Shown here: positions 9,837-22,379 of the stretch, piece after piece
Position numbering within the stretch: position 1 is the first letter of the stretch
How the letters are laid out: each line of letters begins with the position of its first letter
DNA from: Lactobacillus sp. ESL0791
GTDB taxonomy: Bacteria; Bacillota; Bacilli; Lactobacillales; Lactobacillaceae
NCBI RefSeq assembly: GCF_029433255.1
Contig: NZ_JAQTHU010000001.1
Coordinates: forward strand, 124,001-188,000
DNA: 64,000 nt
Reading direction: 5' to 3'
Translations under genes and position numbers: made by a program
The notes under the pieces: model-generated
What the model was told of the DNA's origin: nothing
Database searches by the model: none
The model's input: only the letters and a program-made list of their open reading frames with translations

Positions 9837-10109
9837 TTAAATATATTTACTCAGATCAAGGCCGTAATCGGTAACGGTAATTTCATAGGCAACTTTATGC
9901 TGATCATCATAATCTTCAGTCTTGCCAAGTGTGAAATATGCGCCAATAGTACCAAATAAATTAACGATAATATCATAAACACCTTTTTTAGAAAACGTAA
10001 CAATGTACAAACATCCAAATTTTGGCTGCTTTTCGCACTTGTATTCGTACATGTCTTTGATACCTTCCTTCATAAATTGTATTAGGTCATCTTGTTTTTT
10101 CTCATTCAT
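9837..10109 (-). CDS. Hypothetical 90-residue protein downstream of the truncated Rgg gene
   Basis: I do not recognise the family. The protein starts MNEKKQDDLIQFMKEGIKDM and has no membrane segment. I chose the start at 10109 because GAGGAAAC lies 6 bases upstream. The 5' part of the same gene is repeated at 13432-13490, behind the intact Rgg gene, as a truncated copy. So an Rgg-plus-small-gene unit was duplicated and this copy kept the complete small gene. Confidence 0.65.
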   Translation of the reverse strand: MNEKKQDDLIQFMKEGIKDMYEYKCEKQPKFGCLYIVTFSKKGVYDIIVNLFGTIGAYFTLGKTEDYDDQHKVAYEITVTDYGLDLSKYI

Positions 10110-10122
10110 AGTTATTGTTTCC

Positions 10123-10653
10123 TCATGCAAATAAATAATCAAACATTTTCAGTTCAAGTGCGAAATTTTTTGCCAATTCTGTAGCACCCATTTCTTCTAG
10201 GACTTTTAAATAATGCAGGGCTTTATTTTTGTCCTTGTTACAGATTGCAATTTTGAATTTGGTAATTTGCAGTTTATCATATTGAAGGATTTCATTGCAA
10301 AGAATTAAGGAATTGTTCAATGCGGTAAGGGTAAGTGCTTTAGGAAAGCTTTGCGTACGCATGAGCAGTTCAATAAGAAGCTGGTTTTTAGTGATTTTAA
10401 GAAAAGAATAGTTGGTTTCAATCGTATGGATTGCCTGGTTTGATATTTGGTTCATTGTTTCATTATCAAAGATAAAGAAAATCATATTGAGCGTGTATAG
10501 ATCCAAGATTGTCCAAGTATCAATTTTAGAATAATAATCGTGCCAAAGCAGCCTGATTTTTTTTACTTCAGGTAAGTTTACTTGTTCCTTTCCGATTTTG
10601 AATGCTGTTAAAATTTTTTCAATTCTTGTCATGTCAAGATTGTAATCAAGCTG
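10123..10653 (-). pseudogene. Truncated Rgg/MutR-family regulator (C-terminal part only)
   Basis: The product matches residues from about 110 to the end of the intact Rgg protein encoded at 13499-14335, with long identical stretches such as DTWTILDLYTLNMIFFIFDN. The DNA-binding N-terminus is gone. Homology stops at about 10653, where the sequence passes into a toxin-like gene on the other strand. The upstream open frame (to 10683) is chance sequence. The protein would lack the helix-turn-helix, so it is most likely inactive. Confidence 0.8.
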
Positions 10654-11009
10654 AACTACTTGATAAGTTAAACGACATGACAATTTCCTATGAGGATGAT
10701 AATTTAGATGATATCCTCAATAATACTAGTAAAATTGGTCTTATGACAAGGTTTGCCTCAGCAATTGTAGCAATAGGTTTCATTCCAGGAATTGGCGAAG
10801 TTATATTAACAATCGCTGGTGTTTTTTTAGTAGGTAACGTTGTTGTAGAAGTTGGTTCTTGGCTTTACAGCACTATAAAAGATAAATTTAATAATGCCAA
10901 GCCATATGCAAGCAATAAGAGTAAAAGCCATTGGGACAAACATACCGGGCATCGTTCCAGAGGCTATGAAAAGAAGAAGGGGAAATCAGGATGGAAAAGT
11001 CGACATTAA
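10654..11009 (+). pseudogene. 5'-truncated C-terminal part of a probable polymorphic (secreted) toxin
   Basis: The frame is open upstream into the Rgg remnant, but real homology can only begin after the junction near 10654. The product has a glycine-rich hydrophobic segment (VAIGFIPGIGEVILTIAGVFLVG) often found before toxin tips, then a basic C-terminus with SHWDKHTGHRSRGYEKKKG, which resembles tips of polymorphic toxins. No SD precedes the first internal ATG (10677). The next gene overlaps its end by 19 bases, as immunity genes do. The toxin activity is not identified. Confidence 0.55.
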
Positions 11010-11219
11010 CTACAGCAAATAAATATCTAAATACAGAAAATTTATTACAAGTTTATTCAAAATATCGTAATGATGATACTTTCTTATTAGGATACTTTAT
11101 GGAAACTATGGGTTCATATTTAATATTTCAAAGTATTGACGAATATGGTGCACTAGATGGATATACCCTCCTAGCTAAATCAGATATTGCAGATATTATT
11201 ACCGATACAAATTATACAA

Positions 11220-12771
11220 CTGAAACTTGAAAGCAATAAAACTAGTCAGATTCCTTGTGGGCTCTGACTTTTTTAATGCCCACTTGTGTTTTATTTGGTT
11301 CACGCCAAATATTTTTGAATGAAGCTAGGTAATAGCTTAATAAATTTGCTTATTATTTGGTCTACCTCTTCTGTAATTTGCTCCTTGACTTCTTTCAATG
11401 CCGATAACAGGTAGACCAATGCTTTTTCGAAAGCTAAATCTGGCAACGCGTCATTCATTAAGTAAAACAAATCTCCAATTGTTCGCTCATCAACTGCTTG
11501 TCTTTCCTGCCAAGCTAGCAGCTCATAAGTTAAGGCAGTGATGGCAAAATAGCCACTTTGTCCGTCATAGTTTTGGATCTGTGATTTATCTAAAGCCAGA
11601 TACTGCTTGGTTGCTTTAAAGAAAGTCTCTATCTGCCATCTACGGCCATAAAGCTGAATAATCTCTTTTGGCTGCAACTGGTATCTTGTAGTAGCCAAAA
11701 CCAAGTATTTTCTCTTGTTACCGCGCTTAGTAACGTATACTAATCTGAGCGGAAAGCTATGTCCTTGATATTCAGCTTCTACCACGCAGCTATAAAGGTA
11801 ATCGTCTTTCAACTTTATCTTTGATGCCGTCAATCTTTCGTACAGACTTTTTACATCATAGAGCCGGCCACGATATCGATAGTATACTTTTTTGCTTAAT
11901 TTAAGCATAGATACGCTGTTTAATCCTAGTTGTTTTAACCGCCAGAACATTTTGGGTGATGCAAACCAACTGTCAAACAGCACATAGTCCGCTGGAATGC
12001 CTTCGTTTAAAGCTTGTTTGATTAATTCAACTGTAACATCATTCATCTGTCTTTGAGCTTGATTTCTTCTTCTGCCTGCAATGGAACGTTTATCAGTAGT
12101 AATGGCTTTACTGCCAATCATGTTTTGTTTGTTCTTAGTTGACATTAAAGCAAAATTTACTGGCAAAAAGTATTGCCATCACTCCAGCCAACAGTTAGGC
12201 CACGGTAACCATTAACATATTCATGCTCATTATGATCATAAACTCTAGCAAGCAATTCCGTTTTCTTAGAATAGGAACGTGACATCAAAGTATCATCAAC
12301 GATCAAGGCTAATCTTCTACGCTTATCAATTGCGGGTTTGAGCGCAGTAATCAAATTGACAGCAGCTAAGCAAAGCAGTTTTTGCCAGTTGATGCGACCA
12401 TCATTGAGAACATTTCTGCCAGTTTTAGAAGTAAATTCTGCAGGTTGATCGAAACGATACAGAGACTTTCTGGCAAAGCGTGATTGGATCATCCAATTAA
12501 TCACCATGAGCAGGCTAACTAAGGAATGACGTTTAAAGTTAACTTTCTTGCTCAGATCAGCTAGACCAATTAGTTTAGCAAAAGCAGAAATTAAAGAACA
12601 AGTATCCTTTTCTTGATTGATTTGCGATATACTTTTCATAGCGTGAGATCTCCTTTAACTTTGATTTTGACACTTAAAGTATAACGCAGGGAGGTCTTGC
12701 GTTTTTATTTTTGTACTAAAAAAGCTAGAAATCACGCTCTTTTTGCGTAATTTCTAGCTTTCAAGTTTCAG
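11220..12771 (-). mobile_element. IS4-family insertion sequence, 1552 bp, with 8-bp target duplication
   Basis: The ends are perfect 15-bp inverted repeats (CTGAAACTTGAAAGC and GCTTTCAAGTTTCAG). The direct repeats TTATACAA at 11212-11219 and 12772-12779 flank them. The transposase reads on the minus strand. Target duplication length and the transposase motif fit family IS4. The intact target duplication suggests a rather recent insertion. Confidence 0.92.
11300..12639 (-). pseudogene. IS4-family transposase in two overlapping frames
   Basis: The N-terminal frame (12157-12639) ends in DGNTFCQ; the C-terminal frame (11300-12166) begins with PVNFALMSTK. Together they give one transposase of about 445 residues. 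Catalytic residues are Asp in LIVDDTL and VLFDSWF, and Glu in the YREK signature YGRRWQIETFFKATKQYL (spacing Y-2-R-3-E-6-K). The shift falls in ACTTTTTGCC; one extra T would restore ...NTFLPVNFALM. This could be a lesion, a sequencing error or a programmed frameshift. Confidence 0.85.
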
Positions 12772-13171: not shown

Positions 13172-13498
13172 CATAATCCAAAGTTTAACAAGAATTGCTG
13201 CTAGACAAGCATTTGGCCGCTAGTAAAATCAGTTGCTTGTGAAAGATTGACCGTATAGCATTAAAAAGCCCGATTTCTCGGGTTTTTGTTTTTGGGTGCG
13301 TTTGGCATGGGGAATAACTAGTGGAACAGCAAATCCGTTGTACTAAATCGTAATGGAACTACTAGCTAATGGTGAAGATATCATCGCGAGGTAGACTTTT
13401 CAGTTTGCTCAAGGCAAACTGCTTTCCTATCCTTGATGCCTTTCTTCATAAAATGAATTAGGTCATCTTGTTTTTTCTCATTCATAGTTATTGTTTCC
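13172..13498. other. Gene-less stretch with a terminator and a remnant of the small Rgg-linked gene
   Basis: After the immunity-gene stop comes a terminator (13263-13290), then about 110 bases without recognisable content, an 8-bp perfect hairpin CAGTTTGC-TCAAG-GCAAACTG near 13402-13422, and from about 13432 the 5' part of a second copy of the 90-residue gene (minus strand), cut off after roughly 20 codons. Confidence 0.6.
13263..13290 (+). terminator. Terminator of the toxin/immunity unit
   Basis: AAAAAGCCCGA pairs with TCGGGTTTTT, followed by GTTTTT. Confidence 0.8.
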
Positions 13499-14335
13499 TC
13501 ATGCAAATAAATAATCAAACATTTTCAGTTCAAGCGCAAAATTTTCTACTAATTCTGTAGCACCCATTTCTTCTAGGACTTTTAAATAATGCAGGGCTTC
13601 CTTTTTATCCTTGTTACAGATTGCAATTCTGAATTTGGTAATTGCCAGCTTGTCATATCGGAGAGTTTCATTGCACAGGGGCAGAGCTTTGTTCAGTGCT
13701 GCAAGCGCCTCAGTAAAGTCCTTTGCACGTATGAATATAATCGCTTTGTTCAATAAAAAGCTGGTTTCTAATGATTTTAGGAAGGGATAATCAGTTTCAA
13801 TCATTTTGATTGCTTTGTTTGATATTTGGTTCATTGTTTCATTATCAAAGATAAAGAAAATCATGTTAAGCGTGTATAGATCCAAGATTGTCCAAGTGTC
13901 AATTTTAGAATAATAGTCGTGCCAAAGTGGCATGATTATTTTTTTAGCTTTAGTTAGACCTATTTGTTCTTTTCCGGTTTTAAATGCTAGTAAAATTTTT
14001 TCAATTCTTGCAATGTCAGGATCGCGATCAAGCAATGAACATTTTTCAAGAAGTTTATTAATAATAGTGGTTTGTGTGCTATAAGCAACATTAATAAAGC
14101 AATAAATAATCTCTTGCTTAGGGGTAAAAGAATAATTATTTCTAATGTATTCAAATTCTGTAGGTGAGACACCAAGTCGAGTAATCAGTTGAATACAGTC
14201 TTCATAAGATGGTTTTTGACTATTATGTTCAATTTTAGAAATAGCGGTTCTGGTAAATAAGTGATCTGCTAAATCAGTCTGTTTAAGTTTACGAGAAAGT
14301 CTAATGTCTTTAATATTTTCTCCAATGTGTTTCAT
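13499..14335 (-). CDS. Rgg/MutR-family transcriptional regulator next to the lanthipeptide cluster
   Basis: The 278-residue protein has an N-terminal helix-turn-helix (residues ~5-60; KQTDLADHLFTRTAISKIEH) and a long helical Rgg C-terminal domain that in this family binds short peptide pheromones. MutR-type members control lantibiotic genes. It is divergent from the ABC exporter and synthetase. I choose ATG 14335, since AAAGG lies 8 bases upstream; the ATG at 14341 would be only 2 bases from it. A truncated second copy lies at 10123-10653. Peptide control of the cluster is inferred. Confidence 0.85.
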   Translation of the reverse strand: MKHIGENIKDIRLSRKLKQTDLADHLFTRTAISKIEHNSQKPSYEDCIQLITRLGVSPTEFEYIRNNYSFTPKQEIIYCFINVAYSTQTTIINKLLEKCSLLDRDPDIARIEKILLAFKTGKEQIGLTKAKKIIMPLWHDYYSKIDTWTILDLYTLNMIFFIFDNETMNQISNKAIKMIETDYPFLKSLETSFLLNKAIIFIRAKDFTEALAALNKALPLCNETLRYDKLAITKFRIAICNKDKKEALHYLKVLEEMGATELVENFALELKMFDYLFA

Positions 14336-14341
14336 ATACAT

Positions 14342-14550
14342 AACCTTTGATGTTCTAAGTTAGAAACTCTTTAAAAAATCAGTAATCATTCTTGTATAAT
14401 TCGTAAATAAGAAGCTAATATGAATATTTTAGCAAATATCAACTTACTTGGATATATACGTAAGAGGTGATAGGCCAATTCTTGTAGGTAGAAGAAGTTA
14501 ATTATACAAATTTTAATATATGGTAAGTAAACCAGAAAGGGGTAGAAGTA
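14342..14550 (+). promoter_or_regulatory. Divergent control region between Rgg regulator and lanthipeptide genes
   Basis: A TATAAT box at about 14395-14400 has TTTAAA 19 bases upstream. Downstream lies a 16-codon ORF (14420-14470, MNILANINLLGYIRKR) with only a weak SD. Rgg systems often keep a short pheromone gene in this place, but this peptide is less hydrophobic than known SHPs. AGAAAGGGG at 14535-14541 is the SD of the exporter gene. Confidence 0.45.
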
Positions 14551-16302
14551 ATTTTTAAAAATAATTCAAAAATACTAAAACTTGTTAAATTAAACAAGTT
14601 TTTCTGGCTAGGCTTACTTTGTGTGATGGCTGGTAGTGCTTTAGGTATAGTTGTTCCTCTGTATATAAAAGATTTAATTGATTTAAAAAATATATTTAAA
14701 TCGGCATTGTCTTTATCTTTTATAGCTAAGTTGGCTGTTGTGCTAGTTGTGCAAACTATTCTCAGTTCAGGAGGAGATTTTTTAATTAGTCGTGAAGGAG
14801 AACGGCAAATAGTTAATATTAGACAGTTATTAGAGTCACATCTTCTTGAACTGCCAGTTAGCTTTTTTGATGAGCAAGATAGCGGCAAGCTTGCAAGTCG
14901 GATTATTAATGATTCGATTTTGGTGAAGGACTTTATTACGGAAACCATTCCTAGTTTTATTACCAGTTTGATTACAGTTGTCGGGACTTTTGCAGTTTTA
15001 TTTACCTTAGATTGGAAGTTAACGCTGGTAATCTTTACGATTTTCCCATTGGATGCGGCGTTTACTATTCCATTGGGAAACTTTGAGGAGAAACTAACAA
15101 TTGATACGCAAAAGAGTCTGAGTGATTTATCGGGTATTACTACTGAAAGTTTACGTAATATTCGAGCAGTTAAGTTAAATGGCGCAGAAACAGGCATTTT
15201 GGCCAAGTTCGTTGCTAAGCTAAAAAGATTATATAAACTGTCAATTAAAAATGATGCAGTGTTTGCAGTTTTGTCACCAATTCAAGATATGGTTTCCTTT
15301 GTGTTAATCGTTTCGGTTCTGTTTTATGGTGGCTATCGTGTACAAACTAGCACTTTGACTGTTGGTGCTTTGACATCATTTTTGATTTACTTTTTTCAAA
15401 TCGTTAATCCAATTAACGTTCTTGCCTCGTTTTACACGGATTGTAAACAAATGAAGGGTGCAGTTTCAAAAATCAGTGACATTCTTGGTAAAAGTACTGA
15501 AAAATATCATTGTCGTAGCCTTAATGTAAAAGTAAATGAACCATATAATTTAACTATTAGCAATCTTTCCTTTGCTTATGGTCAAAAAAAGGTTTTAGAA
15601 AGGATCAACATGCAGTTTCCGACTGAAAAGAAAATTGCAATTGTTGGTCCTACAGGTGCAGGTAAATCGACATTAATTAATTTGATTACTAGGCTGTATA
15701 ATCCGACATCGGGAGCGATTAAGCTTAATGAAATTAATAGTAATGAATTTGCTTTGGAAGATTGGCGCAGTCTGTTTGGCGTAGTTTCACAGGAAAATTA
15801 TATTATTTCGGGAACTATTTACGATAATTTAGTTTTTGGGCTGCAACAGCAGCCATCGGCTAGTAGCCTTAATGAAGCTATTGCCATCGCGAATCTAGCA
15901 GAATTTATTGCTGGTTTAAAACACGGTATAGCCGAAGTTGTTGGTGAACAGGGCATTAAGCTCTCAGGTGGGCAGCGGCAAAAAATCCAAATTGCCCAAG
16001 CTTACTTGAGGAATCCACGTTTTTTAATCCTTGATGAGGCTACTTCCAATCTAGATGCAAATTCTGAAGCAGAAGTTTCGCAGGCTCTAAAGCACGTTAT
16101 GCAGGGCAGGACAATCATAACGATTGCCCATCGCTTAGCCACAATTACCGATTCCGATCGAATTTATTTTTTGGATAATAAGACGATCGTTGGTTCAGGA
16201 AATCACGAAGAATTACTGAAAAAGGTGCCTAAATATCGGCGTTTTGTTAAAGAACAAATTTTACCGTCGAATAGTCATCGGATAAATGGAGTTGATAGTT
16301 GA
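14551..16302 (+). CDS. ABC exporter (membrane domain fused to ATPase) of the lanthipeptide cluster
   Basis: The protein is a half-size exporter: six membrane helices (residues ~20-310), then an ATPase with Walker A VGPTGAGKST, signature LSGGQRQKIQIAQAY, Walker B FLILDEATSNLD and the H-loop IAHRLAT. There is no N-terminal peptidase domain. The first ATG/GTG (14623/14626) would remove most of the first membrane helix. The frame upstream is coding-like (FKNNSKILKLVKLNKFFWLG) back to a stop at 14542, and a strong SD AAAGGGG sits 8-9 bases before ATT 14551. I therefore propose an ATT start. It probably exports the modified peptide. Confidence 0.85.
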   Translation: MFKNNSKILKLVKLNKFFWLGLLCVMAGSALGIVVPLYIKDLIDLKNIFKSALSLSFIAKLAVVLVVQTILSSGGDFLISREGERQIVNIRQLLESHLLELPVSFFDEQDSGKLASRIINDSILVKDFITETIPSFITSLITVVGTFAVLFTLDWKLTLVIFTIFPLDAAFTIPLGNFEEKLTIDTQKSLSDLSGITTESLRNIRAVKLNGAETGILAKFVAKLKRLYKLSIKNDAVFAVLSPIQDMVSFVLIVSVLFYGGYRVQTSTLTVGALTSFLIYFFQIVNPINVLASFYTDCKQMKGAVSKISDILGKSTEKYHCRSLNVKVNEPYNLTISNLSFAYGQKKVLERINMQFPTEKKIAIVGPTGAGKSTLINLITRLYNPTSGAIKLNEINSNEFALEDWRSLFGVVSQENYIISGTIYDNLVFGLQQQPSASSLNEAIAIANLAEFIAGLKHGIAEVVGEQGIKLSGGQRQKIQIAQAYLRNPRFLILDEATSNLDANSEAEVSQALKHVMQGRTIITIAHRLATITDSDRIYFLDNKTIVGSGNHEELLKKVPKYRRFVKEQILPSNSHRINGVDS

Positions 16303-16319
16303 ACAGGAAAGGAGCATGA

Positions 16320-18956
16320 GTGTTGGAGAGCAAATATATAGAATTTAATAAAAATGATAGTGGTTTATTTGATCAAGATCCAAACCAAATAGATAAAAAA
16401 GCTGACAGATTTGTAATTCCCGATTTTTCGTTCAAACATTGGTTTTATTCGGTTAGTAATGATTGGATATATGTGATGAATAAAGATGAGAAAGATTCAC
16501 CAGATCAAGGATGGAAAATTCACTTAACCGCAGTTCCTGAAGAAGCACAGGAATTATTATACGTGGTAGCTGATTATTTGCTGACACGGGGAGTTTCATT
16601 TAAATTTGTGCCAACGGTTGTTAAACTAATTGAAAAAAATTCTAAAACTGCCGATAGAAGTTCTTCAGGCAAATTTATAACAATTTACCCACATGATGAA
16701 ACCACATTTGTACAATTACTGGATAAGTTAGATAAGTTAACGCATTTCTTTACTTCTGGGCCATATATATTGAATGATAAGCAATGGAAAGAAGGCAACG
16801 TTTTCTTTCGCTATGGTGGCTTTAAAGAAATGATATTAAAACAGAATGGTGAGAAAATTGATGCGATCAAGGATCCCAATGGTAAGCTAATTCCAGATAA
16901 AAGGGTGCCATATTATTATTTACCTGAGTTTGTCACAGAACCGGCAATTATTCAGGCTGAGGAACAGGATCAAGCATTGAATGATACGGAACTAAGTGAA
17001 TTTGACAAGTATCAAATAACTTATCCCATTACCTTTAGCAATGCTGGCGGTATTTATAAAGCAAGGATTGCCGATAAACAATGTGTTTTGAAAGAGGGGC
17101 GGCCCAAGGCCGGCCTAGATGGTAATAATAATGATGGCTTTTACCGGATCTTGTTGGAATATCGCACTTTAGTTAGATTAAAGGACAATACTTATGTGGT
17201 AAATGTTAGTAATTACTTTACAGCTTGGAAGCACAACTATCTGGTAGAAGATTTTGCTACAGGAGTAACTTTAGATGAATTTATTGCAACGAATTTTCCG
17301 TTTAATAATATAACTTGTAAGCCCGAAACAAGCAATAAGTATTTAGATAATGCAATTTTGATTATTGAAGAATTAATCAAGGCGATTAAATCAATTCATG
17401 CACAAGGGATTGCGATGGGTGATTTACAACCGGGAAATGTGATTTTTTCGGAAGCAGATCGAAAAATAACCCTAATTGACTTTGAAGAAGCTGCCAATCC
17501 CAAGTCTAAGTTTGCTTCAGGCTTGATAACTGATGGCTTTGCTAGTCGTGAAGCACAAACTTTTGGAGAGGCAGATTGGTTTGCTATTGGTAAGATTGCT
17601 TATCATTTATTTATTCCTATATCAGCAGCTAATAGCAGCCTTTCTCCCGATATAAAATCGATTTACGATGAAAGAATAAGTCTAGTATTTGGTGAAAAGG
17701 CAATTAAATTTCTAAAAAAAGTCATGTTGGAGATATCTAGGCATACGAACGTTGATGGTGCTCCTTTATTTATGGAGAAATTTTTAAAGCTTCCTGGTAA
17801 AAGACTAACCAAGAAAAATAAGCAGTACTTTATTACGGAATTGAGAAACGGAATTGCTAACCATTTGGATTTCACTAGTTCAGGTCTGATTAAGGGTAAC
17901 GTTAAACAGTATCAAGATACTACGTCAAGATATTCTGTTGAGTATGGTGCATTTGGTGGCATAATGACACTAATGCGGTCTGGTGGGATTAATGATGAAA
18001 TAGTCAGTAGCATAGAAAATTGGTTTTTACCGAATTATTCAATTATTTCATCAAATGATTTCGTTAAATCCTCGTCTTACGGACTGTTTGATGGCCTAGC
18101 GGGTATTAGTTCTGTCTTGTATGATCTGGGACAGGCGGATAAAGCGACTAAACTTTTGCAAAAAATTAATTTAGCAGATGTTGGAAATGTTTCTTTATTA
18201 AATGGTGTTTCGGGAATAGGGCTGGCATTTCTAGGAGGTTATCTCATAACAGGTAATACTGAACTTTTGCAGAGCTGTTATCAAGCTGCTGACATAGTAA
18301 AGGCTAATTTTGAAAAAAGAACAGATGTTAAGCCTGAATTAAAAGATACTGGTTTATTAAATGGGTTGGCAGGAGAAGCATTATTTCTGTATAAATTGGG
18401 AGAAAAGACACAAGCACAAAAGTTTAAAAAATTAGCTATTAATATCATTGATTACATAATTAAACATCAGCTCAAGTACGATCAGGATGGTAATTTGTTT
18501 GTGAATGATACTAGTAGAAAGGTTCATAGATTAATTCCTTATTTAAACGATGGTTCAGCAGGAATAGCGATTGTTATGCTGATTATTTATCAGGATCAGG
18601 AATCTTTTCTTACTAATAATAGAGAAAAAGTTTTACGTGATTTAATCAGTGCTACTTTTTCGGCTTCAACAGTAGAAGCTGGAATATTTGATGGTTATGC
18701 TGGATTTTTGATATTAGGCAATCTTATTAACTTAAGCTTTAAGGATGATCGGTTATTGAACTACACATTGGACGGTATGAATATGTATTTATTTTCTAAT
18801 GGCTTAGATGAAATTTATTTGTCTGGTGAACGGGGATTAAAATGTTCGATGGATGTAGCTACTGGTGCTAGCGGCTTAATTTTGGCTTTACTAGGAATAG
18901 ACACGGACAAGTGGTATTCATTTTTACCGATTCCGCTATCAGCAAAAATATTTTAA
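16320..18956 (+). CDS. Class III lanthipeptide synthetase LanKC
   Basis: This 878-residue enzyme dehydrates Ser/Thr by phosphorylation and elimination and closes (methyl)lanthionine or labionin rings. Three domains follow each other: an N-terminal lyase (~1-215), a Ser/Thr-kinase-like domain (~235-480; GGIYKARIADKQCVLK, catalytic loop AMGDLQPGNV at ~366, LIDFEEA at ~385), and a LanC-like cyclase (~530-878; FDGLAGISSVLY, LLNGVSGIG, LNDGSAGIA, FDGYAGF). The cyclase lacks the Cys-Cys-His zinc ligands of class I, II and IV enzymes, which places it in class III. Start is GTG with SD AAAGGAG. The precursor gene follows 14 bases after the stop. Confidence 0.93.
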   Translation: MLESKYIEFNKNDSGLFDQDPNQIDKKADRFVIPDFSFKHWFYSVSNDWIYVMNKDEKDSPDQGWKIHLTAVPEEAQELLYVVADYLLTRGVSFKFVPTVVKLIEKNSKTADRSSSGKFITIYPHDETTFVQLLDKLDKLTHFFTSGPYILNDKQWKEGNVFFRYGGFKEMILKQNGEKIDAIKDPNGKLIPDKRVPYYYLPEFVTEPAIIQAEEQDQALNDTELSEFDKYQITYPITFSNAGGIYKARIADKQCVLKEGRPKAGLDGNNNDGFYRILLEYRTLVRLKDNTYVVNVSNYFTAWKHNYLVEDFATGVTLDEFIATNFPFNNITCKPETSNKYLDNAILIIEELIKAIKSIHAQGIAMGDLQPGNVIFSEADRKITLIDFEEAANPKSKFASGLITDGFASREAQTFGEADWFAIGKIAYHLFIPISAANSSLSPDIKSIYDERISLVFGEKAIKFLKKVMLEISRHTNVDGAPLFMEKFLKLPGKRLTKKNKQYFITELRNGIANHLDFTSSGLIKGNVKQYQDTTSRYSVEYGAFGGIMTLMRSGGINDEIVSSIENWFLPNYSIISSNDFVKSSSYGLFDGLAGISSVLYDLGQADKATKLLQKINLADVGNVSLLNGVSGIGLAFLGGYLITGNTELLQSCYQAADIVKANFEKRTDVKPELKDTGLLNGLAGEALFLYKLGEKTQAQKFKKLAINIIDYIIKHQLKYDQDGNLFVNDTSRKVHRLIPYLNDGSAGIAIVMLIIYQDQESFLTNNREKVLRDLISATFSASTVEAGIFDGYAGFLILGNLINLSFKDDRLLNYTLDGMNMYLFSNGLDEIYLSGERGLKCSMDVATGASGLILALLGIDTDKWYSFLPIPLSAKIF

Positions 18957-18970
18957 AGGTGGTGAAAAAG

Positions 18971-19099
18971 ATGAGAAATCGAATTTTGGCTTTGCAAAAG
19001 CGTAAAGCAAGACATAATGGGTCGGCCAAGCGCCACAAAAGTAGCATAAGTCATCATTGCTATTATGTGAAAAGCAATAAGAGTATTGTTTGTAGATAA
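18971..19099 (+). CDS. Class III lanthipeptide precursor with two labionin motifs
   Basis: A 42-codon gene with SD AAGGTGGTG lies directly behind the synthetase gene. The leader carries ILALQ at residues 5-9, matching the ILxLQ recognition motif of class III leaders. The putative core holds two copies of Ser-x2-Ser-x2-Cys: SSISHHC at residues 24-30 and SNKSIVC at residues 35-41, separated by YYVK and ending with Arg. S-x2-S-x2-5-C is the motif converted to labionin or lanthionine rings. The leader is unusually basic (KRKARHNGSAKRHK). The cleavage site is not evident. An in-frame extension to 18911 overlaps the synthetase and has no SD, so I reject it. Confidence 0.9.
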   Translation: MRNRILALQKRKARHNGSAKRHKSSISHHCYYVKSNKSIVCR

Positions 19100-19224
19100 A
19101 ATACTTCAAAAGTTTTTAAAGAAGTTGATGAATGTGGAAAATTAAATTTTGAGTTTACAAATAAAAGCTTAGGAAAATTAATTAACAATTATTGTTAGAA
19201 AGTTTAAGAGGTGAGAGAATTTCT

Positions 19225-19251
19225 TTGAAAAATTTTATAATTGTGTTGTAG
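19225..19251 (+). CDS. Possible 8-codon micro-ORF behind the lanthipeptide precursor
   Basis: TTG-started MKNFIIVL has a strong SD-like AAGAGGTGAGAG about 8 bases upstream and stops exactly at the foot of a terminator. A longer in-frame reading from TTG 19192 is possible. It may be a short signal peptide, a decayed gene or chance. Nothing else is visible between 19100 and 19224. Confidence 0.25.
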   Translation: MKNFIIVL

Positions 19252-19285
19252 ATAAAGGTCTATTGTTACTTTTATCTACTTTTTC
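19248..19285 (+). terminator. Terminator of the lanthipeptide operon
   Basis: GTAGATAAA pairs with TTTATCTAC and is followed by TTTTT. It separates exporter-synthetase-precursor from the DUF4097 gene. Confidence 0.75.
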
Positions 19286-19383
19286 ATCTATGTAATATAT
19301 AGATGAATTAAGAGTATAATGTATATAAAATAATTATTATAATTCAATTGAGAATAATTATTTTTATTAGGAGTATATTTGAT

Positions 19384-20223
19384 ATGAAAAAATCTTTTAA
19401 ATTTTGGTTCACAATTATTATGACCAGCTTAACTTTGGTGCTAGTGGAGTATTTACCTAATCATAACAGTATAAATGAGGTTCATGCCCGGGCAGAAAAA
19501 GCTAGTCTGCAGAATCCGGTCAGAACTGTTCCCCTAGCTAAGTTTAATAAAATTGACATCAATGTGGCTGCGACTGATGTTCACATCCATACCGGTGATA
19601 GGTACCAAGTTAAGATAACAGATAATAAATATGCAACTATTTCAGCCGAAAATAATCAAGGAACATTAAAAATTCGCGATCACGGGCAAGGCCGTCCTTT
19701 TGGAAAAAGGGGCTGGGCAAATCGCCATTGTGCATTAGCAATTGATATTACAGTTCCTGATAAAGATTCTCTAATTGCAATTACTAGTAAGAATAATGCC
19801 GGTAATTTTAAAGTAGAAAATTTGCAGCTTCGAAAATTAGCTATTGATACTGATGCAGGGGATTGTAAATTGCTAAATATGCAAATAAAGCGGCAAGGCA
19901 GGGTAAGTACCAATGATGGAGATATTAAAATTTCCAGTTCACAACTAAATAATCTTAATTTCAAAAGTAAGGATGGCAATATTACTATTAATCATAGCAA
20001 GCTAGCGGGGAGCAATTTAGTTAAGATTAATCTTGGTAATTTCACCATGCATCAAGCGTCTAGAAAAATCAATTATCGGTTAGCAACTCGTGGAAAACTA
20101 AAATTATTTGATCACAAAAAAGATGGCGATTGTCTTAAGAAAGTACATCTTACTGAAGCGGCTCCGTGTAATAAGAATACACTTAAAGTTACAGCTTCTT
20201 ATGGTAATGTTGGTATCAATTAA
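19384..20223 (+). CDS. Membrane-anchored DUF4097-like protein, copy 1
   Basis: The 279-residue protein starts with a membrane helix or signal anchor (KKSFKFWFTIIMTSLTLVLV), followed by a repetitive beta-strand region (residues ~50-275: DINVAATDVHIHTG, YQVKITDN, AIDITVPDKDSL, NNAGNFKVENL, DAGDCKLLNMQI, KSKDGNITINHSKL). This fits the DUF4097/toast-rack beta-solenoid seen in LiaF-like and adhesin-like envelope proteins. ATG 19384 follows SD AGGAG by 10 bases. A broken paralogue lies at 21560-22379. The position next to a lanthipeptide cluster suggests envelope protection or sensing, which is inference. Confidence 0.75.
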   Translation: MKKSFKFWFTIIMTSLTLVLVEYLPNHNSINEVHARAEKASLQNPVRTVPLAKFNKIDINVAATDVHIHTGDRYQVKITDNKYATISAENNQGTLKIRDHGQGRPFGKRGWANRHCALAIDITVPDKDSLIAITSKNNAGNFKVENLQLRKLAIDTDAGDCKLLNMQIKRQGRVSTNDGDIKISSSQLNNLNFKSKDGNITINHSKLAGSNLVKINLGNFTMHQASRKINYRLATRGKLKLFDHKKDGDCLKKVHLTEAAPCNKNTLKVTASYGNVGIN

Positions 20224-20278
20224 ATATAGCAAATAGTTTAACTGAAAAATCAAAGTTAATATTACGGGGAGCATACTA

Positions 20279-21466
20279 ATGCAAAAGTATAAACGGATTT
20301 TTTATTTTATTAGCTCTCTATATGACATAAGTCTTGCCGTATGGAGCGGCACGATTTATCTCTTCATGCATCAAATTGGCTATACTTATGGCCAAATCAA
20401 TCTTTTTTTAAGCATATTTTGGTTGATTACTTTCTTCACTGAAATCCCTTCTGGCTATATTGCTGATCGGCTAGGTTATCTTAAAACGATTCAAATCAGT
20501 GGATTTATCCGAGCCGCTGGTTTATTGGTCTTGGCATTTAATGCGTGTCACCTATGGGTTTTAGTAATTAGTGGGATTTTGACGGCTTTAGGTGACTCGT
20601 TGCAGTCGGGCACATTACCGTCATGGATTGCCAACAAAGCAGTCGTTAATAAAGAAAAAAACAAATTGGGAGCAATTTACTCTTTTTATAATTTGCTATC
20701 AACACCCATTAATATGGTATTTGGCTTCATTGGCGCTCAGTTACTTGGAAATATTGATTTGAAGCTGCCATTAATAGTCGGTGCAGGTTTATTAGTTATT
20801 ACAGGGGTGATAGTGTGGCCTTTGTTGAAATATGATAGTCAGAATTTAATGCAAAAGCACCCTAAAGTACAATTTCATTTGGTAAGCGATGTAAAGACAG
20901 TTATTAAGCATGAATTGACGACTTTTAAGTTGATTTTACTATTACTACCGATTACTTTTATTTCGGCTGGACCGTTAGACCAATGGCAGTTATATTTCCA
21001 GCAGGGTAAGCAGATTAAGAGCGGTATTATTTTGCTCGCAATGGGTTTAGTTGGAATGCTGGGTTCACTGGTTTATCGTAAGCTTAGTCAAAAACCACAG
21101 CATGAATTGAGATTGATTAGTATTTGTGTTTTATTGATGACAGGTACAATTTGTCTGACTGTTGTTACCAGAAAGGCTTATTATTTGTCATTGGCGTTAT
21201 TCTTGCTTCATGACTTCTTTGGTAAGATTGAACAGATCGCGCAAGATACTTTTTTGCAAGTGACAATTGAAACGGAAACTAGGCGAGCTACGCTTATTTC
21301 TGTTAGTAACGCATTAGAAGCAGCAGTTTCAGTAGTAATTTTGGCAATTAACGGGTATTTGTCGGATCATTACGGAATTGGTACTGCTTGGATAAGTCTA
21401 GCTGTAGTTGGAATACTACTGTTTGGTTTGGCATATTTGTTTAAACGAAAAAGTAGCAGTGACTAA
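20279..21466 (+). CDS. MFS transporter between the two DUF4097 genes
   Basis: A 395-residue protein with about 12 membrane helices and the MFS loop 2-3 motif GYIADRLGYLKT. The N-terminal region (SSLYDISLAVWSGTIYLFM, FFTEIPSGYIADR) is typical of drug-efflux-like MFS proteins of Firmicutes. The substrate is unknown. SD GGGGAG stands before ATG. The setting suggests a second exporter or self-protection factor for the lanthipeptide region. Confidence 0.82.
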   Translation: MQKYKRIFYFISSLYDISLAVWSGTIYLFMHQIGYTYGQINLFLSIFWLITFFTEIPSGYIADRLGYLKTIQISGFIRAAGLLVLAFNACHLWVLVISGILTALGDSLQSGTLPSWIANKAVVNKEKNKLGAIYSFYNLLSTPINMVFGFIGAQLLGNIDLKLPLIVGAGLLVITGVIVWPLLKYDSQNLMQKHPKVQFHLVSDVKTVIKHELTTFKLILLLLPITFISAGPLDQWQLYFQQGKQIKSGIILLAMGLVGMLGSLVYRKLSQKPQHELRLISICVLLMTGTICLTVVTRKAYYLSLALFLLHDFFGKIEQIAQDTFLQVTIETETRRATLISVSNALEAAVSVVILAINGYLSDHYGIGTAWISLAVVGILLFGLAYLFKRKSSSD

Positions 21467-21559
21467 CAAGTAAAATATCTAGCGATTATAGAGCATTTGA
21501 AGATCCTAAGCTATGAAAAAAAGTAAATCGCTAGTCAACCAAGAAAACAGGAGTTCACA

Positions 21560-22379
21560 ATAAAAAAATCTTTTAAAATCGGCATCACGGCCGTAATCAT
21601 TGGCATAATTTTTCTTATTGTTGGTGGTATTAATCATGGATTGCCTGATCATTATGACAGCAAAGCTAGTAGCTATACAAAATCCACTTCAAAATCACGC
21701 ACTGTTGATACAGTTAGGTTTAATCAGGTTAGGTTAAACAATATTAAGGCAGCCGATGTCTGTATTCACACTGGCAGTAAATACCAAGTAAAAATCACGG
21801 ATAACAAAGATGCAACTATCACGGCAAAAGTTAAGCATGATGAGTTAGAAATTGGTGAACATGGAATTGGTCAGGCTTTTGGAAAAAATGGTTGGGCCAA
21901 TAGAGGTCATAAGTTTGCCATTGAAGTTACCATTCCAACCAAGGATTCATTATCTGAAATTACTGGTGAGAAAAATACAGGCAGATTTAAACTGGCTAAT
22001 CTGTCTTTACAAAAACTTGATGTTAAAACTAATGCGGGCAGCTGCAAATTAACCAATGTTCAAATAAAGCAGCAGGGTAAGATAAATGCCAATGTTAGCA
22101 AATTATCTATTTCCCGTTCAGAGTTGAATAATTTTACTTATAAAAGTCGCGTGGGCAGTGGCAGTTAACAATAGTCGATTATTTGGCAGCAACCGCTTTT
22201 CCTCTAACATAGGTAATTTTACAATGCGTCAAGCACCAACAATCAATTATGATCTTTCTACTGTTATGGGTAGTATTAAATATTTGGGCAGTCAAAAGGG
22301 AAGAAAATTTGCTAAGCATGTTGGCAGTAAAAATTCACTCAAAGTTACTACTAGAATGAGTAAAATTTCGATTAACTAG
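21560..22379 (+). pseudogene. DUF4097-like protein, copy 2, frameshifted and with an ATA start
   Basis: The reading frame begins KKSFKIGITAVIIGIIFLIVGG and parallels copy 1 throughout. The expected start codon is ATA (21560), placed after SD CAGGAG where an ATG should be. Near 22150-22160 the frame shifts: the first frame ends in KSRVGSGS, and the other frame continues AVNNSRLFGSN...GNFTMRQAPTINY, matching copy 1 (KSKDGNITINHSKL...GNFTMHQ). One missing base explains this. Both lesions suggest inactivation, but a sequencing error cannot be excluded. Confidence 0.8.

Follow-up and report, generated by a model that had tools for sequence, protein, structure and literature searches.

A probable class III lanthipeptide gene cluster of Lactobacillus sp. 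ESL0791 with a double-motif precursor and a predicted AUU start of its exporter

In the literature searched, the class III lanthipeptides of lactobacilli are so far known as gene clusters only. Such clusters were reported in 2023 from Lactobacillus Firm-5, including L. bombicola and L. bohemicus (PMC10673953), a Lactobacillus group of class III precursors appears in PMC8960859, and the term ‘lanthipeptide-class-iii’ occurs in two studies of dairy isolates, of which one concerns L. delbrueckii subsp. bulgaricus (PMC11865268, PMC11804002). Here, we analyse a 64000 nucleotide stretch of the genome of Lactobacillus sp. ESL0791 (contig NZ_JAQTHU010000001.1, positions 124001 to 188000; the whole stretch is ‘the window’), in which an ATP-binding cassette (ABC) exporter, a lanthionine synthetase (LanKC) and, 14 bases past the LanKC stop codon, a 42-codon precursor gene follow one another on the + strand. 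The bee-gut Firm-5 clusters resemble it in genus, in a LanKC free of zinc ligands and in an adjoining ABC exporter (PMC10673953), whereas the Firm-5 type loci in our comparison (L033–L038) encode LanKC proteins 37–39% identical to that of the window and precursors that mostly carry a single [ST]-x2-C motif. The ThurKC/andalusicin system of Bacillus thuringiensis NRRL B-23139 (PDB 8sao/8sap/8sam; PMC10604976) is likewise built on a three-domain enzyme, and shares with the window an LxLQ leader, the mapped lyase and kinase residues, the Phe-Asp pair of the cyclase and a cluster without a protease gene. It differs in having seven precursors and a methyltransferase, where the window has one precursor with two short motifs.

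We regard it as very probable that the window encodes a class III lanthipeptide system of Lactobacillus, its exporter, synthetase and precursor lying in one operon. This confidence concerns the class III lanthipeptide identity and does not extend to leader removal, export or the action of the product. As judged from its genes, the cluster appears genuine and is probably working, and its product is most likely a positively charged, ring-shaped peptide that the cluster both makes and exports. The first-pass annotation of the window had named Lactobacillus as the host genus, correctly, and had ventured that the cluster may be undescribed. Its kind was already in print for bee lactobacilli and for a Lactobacillus precursor group (PMC10673953, PMC8960859), and within that kind the cluster has a small, recognizable precursor subfamily; the open-licence literature searched, at the level of titles and abstract openings, yielded neither a description of this family nor any class III product that had been isolated from a lactobacillus. 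The surprising parts are the conserved, apparently AUU, start of the exporter and a leader protease that was not found.

The synthetase unites RamC_N lyase, Pkinase and LANC_like domains in one chain (Pfam) and scores 680.8 bits with the NCBIfam class III LanKC model NF038151 (cut-off 575). Its match to ThurKC (PDB 8sao) has an E-value of 2.9e-116 over 814 residues (58–871), and the residues discussed in the ThurKC paper (PMC10604976) were transferred through the printed LanKC–ThurKC alignment. The lyase residues K65, H67, K94, K108, K117, D152, R163 and R191 and the kinase residues K257, R275, E279, D364, D382, F383, E384 and T399 are identical between the two enzymes (8/8 in each set); the Asn366 named by the paper reads Gln in the printed chain, and the nearby Asn369 is kept (N373). 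In the cyclase domain N743, F790 and D791 occupy the positions of the NisC zinc ligands Cys284, Cys330 and His331, which agrees with the first-pass annotation, where the enzyme had been read as class III and as lacking zinc ligands. F790 and D791 also match the Phe-Asp pair that ThurKC requires for ring closure (PMC10604976).

Ala variants of ThurKC at Arg610 and Asp667 gave no labionin (PMC10604976), and these two residues are Leu627 and Asn681 in the LanKC of the window. The Arg-Asp pair is present together in 14 of 85 LanKC rows (kept from 99 offered, with the window included and at least five genomes represented twice); across the same rows the eight lyase residues are invariant, K65 and H67 having been partly pre-selected by the motif filter. 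On this alignment the pair is a trait of one lineage and not a general labionin marker. We therefore draw no conclusion on ring type, and a labionin prediction from cyclase residues was dropped as uninformative. PADLOC matches of LanKC, which fall in the kinase domain, were set aside, and a scan of genome contigs with the window LanKC alone as query gave no match. Nor did a nucleotide search of positions 1–25000 of the window against plasmids.

The precursor can be divided, putatively, into a leader of about MRNRILALQKRKARHNGSAKRH and a core region of about KSSISHHCYYVKSNKSIVCR that holds two S-x2-S-x2-C motifs; its frame is also listed inside a longer frame opening at GTG 18911. Among the 531 open frames of 25–90 amino acids (aa) in the window, it is the sole one with two such motifs. 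The ILALQ leader and the tandem motifs in a 42-codon gene after the synthetase had been picked out by the first-pass annotation and stand, as does its expectation of a basic product, the computed charge of the 20-residue core being +3.9 at pH 7. Its figure of four dehydrations is widened: the core region holds five Ser, so that up to five are possible. With two motifs of the shortest spacing in the S-x2-S-x2-5-C range in a core of about 20 residues, and an enzyme that lacks the Arg-Asp pair of ThurKC, the system would offer a clean test of lanthionine versus labionin formation.

A LanKC survey of the genus (75 genomes including that of the window, 13 with a match over cut-off) and a plasmid search gave the two nearest LanKC relatives found with DNA. 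In one genome (G033) the LanKC is 61% identical to that of the window and two precursors lie directly behind it; on a plasmid of Lactobacillus helsingborgensis IBH003 (NZ_CP084385, source Apis mellifera) the LanKC is 60% identical, and two small ‘hypothetical proteins’ directly after it are the precursors. Conservation of the precursor beside synthetase homologues had been set beforehand as a test of the cluster, and it was found as two copies in each of these relatives. The relatives' four precursors are 39–43% identical to that of the window, and in the five aligned sequences, from three genomes or records, both motifs and the leader residues L6 and L8-Q9-K10 are invariant. A profile of the five returned four entries from a protein database: the L. 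helsingborgensis pair and one protein identical to the first G033 copy, all three already in the query (E-values 1.5e-22 to 1.6e-20), and one new protein (7.7e-17), which also keeps both motifs and brings the distinct precursors with the double motif to six of six. Because genes with both motifs stand in the same place in two relatives, and because a sixth member joins them, we conclude from the comparison that the 42-codon gene is a real precursor. Six further LanKC cluster representatives at 58–63% identity, some of them perhaps near copies of G033 or L. helsingborgensis, suggest that the subfamily is wider. It is compact, consisting of exporter, synthetase and one or two short precursors, and should be easy to rebuild in Escherichia coli.

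The L. helsingborgensis locus is like that of the window in both precursor motifs, in an exporter with the same predicted AUU start and in having DUF4097 genes nearby, and unlike it in its plasmid location, its two precursors, a dlt operon nearby and an exporter split by an ISL3 element; no paper on this LanKC cluster was met in the literature searched. In the more distant Lactobacillus loci (L033–L046), we counted 19 precursor candidates of the LxLQ type, once a pair of overlapping L044 frames and a longer version of one L036 start had been set aside. Fourteen have a single [ST]-x2-C only (KSLIC, TYIC, VSLLC), five have one [ST]-x2-[ST]-x2-C unit (one each in L035, L036, L037, L042 and L043), and none has two units. 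L039 and L040 gave no candidate under the LxLQ filter; L040 has an SHISIMC peptide without LxLQ, and L043 another. Lys, Arg and His are abundant in many of the candidates in these loci. The single-unit precursors (L033–L038, L041, L042, L044–L046) differ from the textbook class III motif, and two loci (L036 and L042) hold three or four different precursors each. In two others (L064 and L049, from genomes G069 and G021) LanKC is split into a 505 aa lyase-kinase and a 376 aa cyclase-like frame, followed by a small ORF (open reading frame), MRNMKNIETVVDLQDLQSIPMKDHKATANDNHFASSLSCGCSAFH.

Tandem motifs as such are ordinary among class III lanthipeptides. Labyrinthopeptins and SapB presumably carry two Ser-x2-Ser-xn-Cys units in one core, as here, and differ in being actinobacterial, in a longer last spacer and in cores that are hydrophobic, not basic. 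In Peptoniphilus vaginalis (L092) and Aedoeadaptatus coli (L083), too, the LxLQ leader of the precursors is followed by a pair of short S-x2-S-x2-C motifs, with a related stretch RKS(S/G)xS; these bacteria belong to another family, and their LanKC proteins are only 31% and 35% identical, respectively, to that of the window.

The assignment of the ABC exporter to the cluster, already made by the first-pass annotation, is borne out by the related Lactobacillus loci, of which 13 out of 15 have a homologue next to LanKC; the exceptions are L045 and L046 (a 6 kb contig). No peptidase domain was among its Pfam hits, in a search made with the frame from 14623. That position is the first canonical start, which would remove the beginning of the membrane domain, and translation probably begins at ATT 14551 instead. 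There is no ATG, GTG or TTG between the in-frame stop codon TAA 14524 and this ATT, which is the best-placed start-like codon between 14524 and 14623 and lies eight bases past the Shine-Dalgarno sequence AAAGGGG. A Shine-Dalgarno sequence followed by ATT TTT AAA/AAG occurs at the same spot in G033 (L032, around 12060, - strand) and in the L. helsingborgensis plasmid (L067, 5786), and the exporter alignments with these two nearest relatives begin exactly at the ATT codon (66.6% over 574 aa and 67.7% over 418 aa). The public annotation of the L. helsingborgensis plasmid starts the exporter at the same ATT; in seven more distant loci that were compared, the exporter gene has an in-frame ATG start. 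From this pattern we infer that translation of the exporter starts at AUU. Staphylococcus aureus reporters with an AUU or AUA start reached about 10% of the expression obtained with AUG when the medium was poor, and as much as 30% in the case of one gene when it was rich (PMC13009471), and in E. coli AUU starts are described for infC and pcnB only (PMC9410913). Because such starts are weak in the one species and AUU is rare in the other, synthesis of the exporter is likely to be low, which raises the question of why it keeps an AUU start in three genomes.

Three other accounts of these genes can be set against this evidence. A class IV (LanL) synthetase with a zinc-dependent cyclase would have the same lyase-kinase-cyclase order, and the class IV model does match LanKC; its 298.4 bits fall below the cut-off of 650, however, whereas the class III score exceeds its own, and with neither Cys nor His at the zinc-ligand positions of LanKC we consider class IV highly improbable. 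Several results weigh against the class III cluster itself. The precursor scores 18.8 bits, under the cut-off of 30, with the class III lanthipeptide model NF038159, which is the model of one subfamily and not a definition of class III precursors. The search of the precursor that the first-pass annotation had proposed succeeded in part, since the single peptide found no homologue in the protein database, the profile of five found the sixth member, and a profile search of 397 family genomes found a subfamily precursor in the genome of the window only. The subfamily is rare, or that search was insensitive; its two other matches (E-values above 0.004, with an internal stop codon) were taken as chance, and because the two-copy G033, either not drawn or missed, was not reported, it says little on rarity. 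The insertion in the L. helsingborgensis exporter means that the cluster there may be inactive. The failure of the single peptide to match would suit a 42-codon frame that is a chance ORF and no precursor, but the same-place genes with invariant motifs in two other genomes or records and the sixth member found by profile argue otherwise. Shuffling of the precursor peptide produced two separate S-x2-S-x2-C motifs in 15 of 200000 trials, and two motifs with an L-x-L-Q near the N-terminus in 0 of 200000, and the probability that we leave to a chance ORF is next to nothing.

It is also conceivable that the cluster is decaying in the window strain and that nothing is made. A full exporter without an ATG, GTG or TTG start, a broken second DUF4097 copy, and a duplicated, truncated rgg-like segment together with transposase-like frames at 9837–12639 would all be in keeping with this. 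Yet decay would hardly leave the ATT codon and its Shine-Dalgarno sequence in place across three genomes or records at an exporter identity of 66–68% to the window, and the LanKC and precursor frames are open and the catalytic residues of LanKC kept. We consider decay rather unlikely, and proceed with a probably working class III system, the features of which are collected in Table 1.

Table 1. Features of the cluster and its surroundings in the window (position 1 is the first nucleotide of the window)
Feature	Position	Strand	Basis
XRE-type helix-turn-helix regulator with Rgg-like C-terminal part, divergent from operon; probable regulator	13499..14341	-	HTH_3 over cut-off
Shine-Dalgarno sequence AAAGGGG (14536–14542) and ATT start (14551–14553) of exporter	14536..14553	+	Conserved in relatives
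ABC exporter, LanT-like, 583 aa from ATT 14551	14551..16302	+	Pfam ABC_membrane and ABC_tran over cut-off; neighbour conservation
LanKC, class III lanthionine synthetase of 878 aa with lyase, kinase and zinc-free cyclase	16320..18956	+	NF038151; match to ThurKC 8sao; catalytic residues mapped
Lanthipeptide precursor, 42 aa, MRNRILALQKRKARHNGSAKRHKSSISHHCYYVKSNKSIVCR	18971..19099	+	Motifs invariant in relatives
Terminator-like hairpin, possible operon end	19248..19289	+	12-pair stem, T-rich tail; weak
DUF4097 (LiaG-like) envelope protein; true start may be internal; possible immunity/stress accessory	19348..20223	+	DUF4097 78 bits
Major facilitator superfamily (MFS) transporter, neighbour	20279..21466	+	MFS_1 79.9 bits
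Second copy of DUF4097, broken; opens with ATA, 3′ part in a different frame	21560..22379	+	52% identical to first copy over 154 aa

These features fit a model, drawn throughout from sequence, in which the leader helix ILALQ would dock on LanKC and switch the kinase on, by analogy with ThurKC. The kinase would phosphorylate the core Ser and the lyase remove the phosphate to give up to five dehydroalanines, as the intact catalytic residues suggest, and the metal-free cyclase would add the two Cys to dehydroalanines of both S-x2-S-x2-C motifs, yielding two ring systems of lanthionine or labionin. A housekeeping protease of the cell would then remove the leader and the ABC exporter would secrete the peptide, with the conserved AUU start probably keeping synthesis of the exporter low. 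Finally, the product, with a net charge of about +4, would target the envelope of close relatives in the manner of a narrow-range bacteriocin.

Class III leaders of Firmicutes, that of ThurKC included, are cut by pairs of M16B proteases (PMC8960859, PMC10604976), S8 proteases cut others (a title in the reference list of PMC10673953), and prolyl oligopeptidases have been proposed for a Streptococcus pneumoniae family (PMC7268733). The cluster has no gene for a class III leader protease, and in the genome of the window (stated completeness 99.93) neither the M16 family PF05193 nor the S8 family PF00082 had a match, although nine and seven, respectively, of 14 control genomes did. The PF00326 matches in this genome are six frames of 274–339 aa, too short for a prolyl oligopeptidase, and no full-length one was found. 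AplP, a further type of class III leader protease, belongs to the M1 family, of which the genome has one aminopeptidase, of 847 aa, as a possible candidate. Because a leader protease was found neither in the cluster nor, from the usual families, in the genome, the model invokes a housekeeping protease; that PepN-like trimming or general endopeptidases do this work is a guess. The question of what cuts the leader where the usual proteases are not found leads to a more elaborate and somewhat doubtful idea, namely a novel route of maturation in which general lactobacillar peptidases trim the leader, or it is cut only outside the cell, while the AUU start restrains export, the two together timing the appearance of the active cationic peptide.

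Rgg control of the operon had been proposed by the first-pass annotation, and the divergent helix-turn-helix gene, which lies just outside the interval that it delimited (14342–22379), makes this plausible, although the protein stays under the curated Rgg cut-offs (Rgg_C 20.6 bits, cut-off 27; TIGR01716 22.3 bits, cut-off 36.9; HTH_3, at 40.8 bits, is over cut-off). The gene upstream of the G033 cluster passes with Rgg_C (58.4 bits), and genes 47–51% identical to that of the window occupy the same divergent place in four of 15 related loci (L033, L035, L036 and L037). Between the rgg-like gene and the first precursor, L033 (5435–5479) and L036 (5517–5561) contain a 14-codon hydrophobic ORF, MLKIFLVGFSLLIG, preceded by a Shine-Dalgarno-like sequence. 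Since its two copies differ by six synonymous codon changes and a stop-codon change, with no residue changed, it is a pheromone candidate, and it resembles the short hydrophobic pheromones of Rgg pairs. No ORF like MLKIFLVGFSLLIG occurs in the spacers of the window, L035 or L037, so that a pheromone ORF in the spacer of the window, where only MNILANINLLGYIRKR (14420–14470) lies at a similar place, was rejected and Rgg control there remains conjectural. The window has two copies of the rgg-like gene, each together with the start of the gene next to it (9837–10683 and 13381–14341), the left copy being truncated at its 5′ end. Between the copies, transposase-like frames recognized by eye (11300–12639) seem to interrupt another gene. 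A small protein at 10602–11009, starting probably near 10676, combines a hydrophobic segment rich in glycine with a tail that is very basic; it had no Pfam or PADLOC match.

A bacteriocin of narrow range, directed at the envelope of close relatives, is our tentative view of the product, held at somewhat less than even confidence. D-alanylation of teichoic acids by dlt genes protects against cationic peptides, and dlt genes near the relatives' clusters therefore fit a product with a charge of about +4: a second dltA and further dlt-like genes lie near the cluster of G033 (L032, 2450–6764), and an annotated dltABCD operon lies near that of the L. helsingborgensis plasmid (L067, 14263–19540). On the other side, the cluster of the window has no adjoining dlt operon, the one dltA over cut-off in its genome lying far away; supernatants of Firm-5 strains with lanthipeptide clusters gave no inhibition of Melissococcus plutonius (PMC10673953), and antibacterial activity is frequently absent in products of classes III and IV, according to that study. 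The machinery could be real and its product a signal, a morphogen-like surfactant or an envelope-modifying peptide under Rgg-type control, which the frequent inactivity of class III products, the divergent Rgg-like regulator and the conserved hydrophobic ORF in the same spacer of L033 and L036 would favour. The lack of such an ORF in the spacers of the window, L035 and L037, an Rgg_C score below cut-off, and dlt and DUF4097 neighbours in the relatives that point to envelope stress speak against it; we see a non-antimicrobial role as a serious alternative, yet one well short of probable. If active, the peptide could matter when lactobacilli compete with one another, also in the bee gut, the source of one relative.

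A general role of dlt in immunity was rejected, because a second dltA over cut-off beside LanKC was found only in G033 among the 75 genomes, with the L. helsingborgensis plasmid as an additional case. Two genomes (G041 and G056) have second dltA copies and no LanKC over cut-off, and G020 has a single dltA over cut-off, which is the one near LanKC. The dltA of the genome of the window is at most 82% identical to that of any other genome among the 67 of the genus with a match (its own included), out of 75 searched. DUF4097 envelope proteins had also been put forward as accessories. They lie near the cluster in the window and in both closest relatives (two genes in L067; about 6 kb from the cluster in L032), but when the copies of the window were used as BLAST queries, the remaining 14 of the 15 related loci gave no match. 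The family has members in 62 of the 75 genomes, with at least eight matches in the genome of the window, and because it is so common in the genus its adjacency proves little; DUF4097 as a conserved partner was rejected, and its link to the cluster is suggestive only. The first DUF4097 protein exceeds the DUF4097 cut-off and scores 47.7 bits with the LiaG model, far below the cut-off of 285; the second, which the first-pass annotation had taken as a gene, has no ATG and is broken.

The MFS exporter named in the same annotation as an accessory finds no support as part of the cluster: its gene was seen only in the window and had no BLAST match in the stretches analysed around LanKC at these 15 loci, among which L046 is short and L036 has no closed frames in its right half. 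The hairpin behind the precursor gives weak support for an operon end, with two terminator-like sites in the region versus 2.5 expected by shuffling. On the L. helsingborgensis plasmid, two helveticin J family genes and a SLAP-domain gene (L067, 1292–4512) lie a few kb from the cluster.

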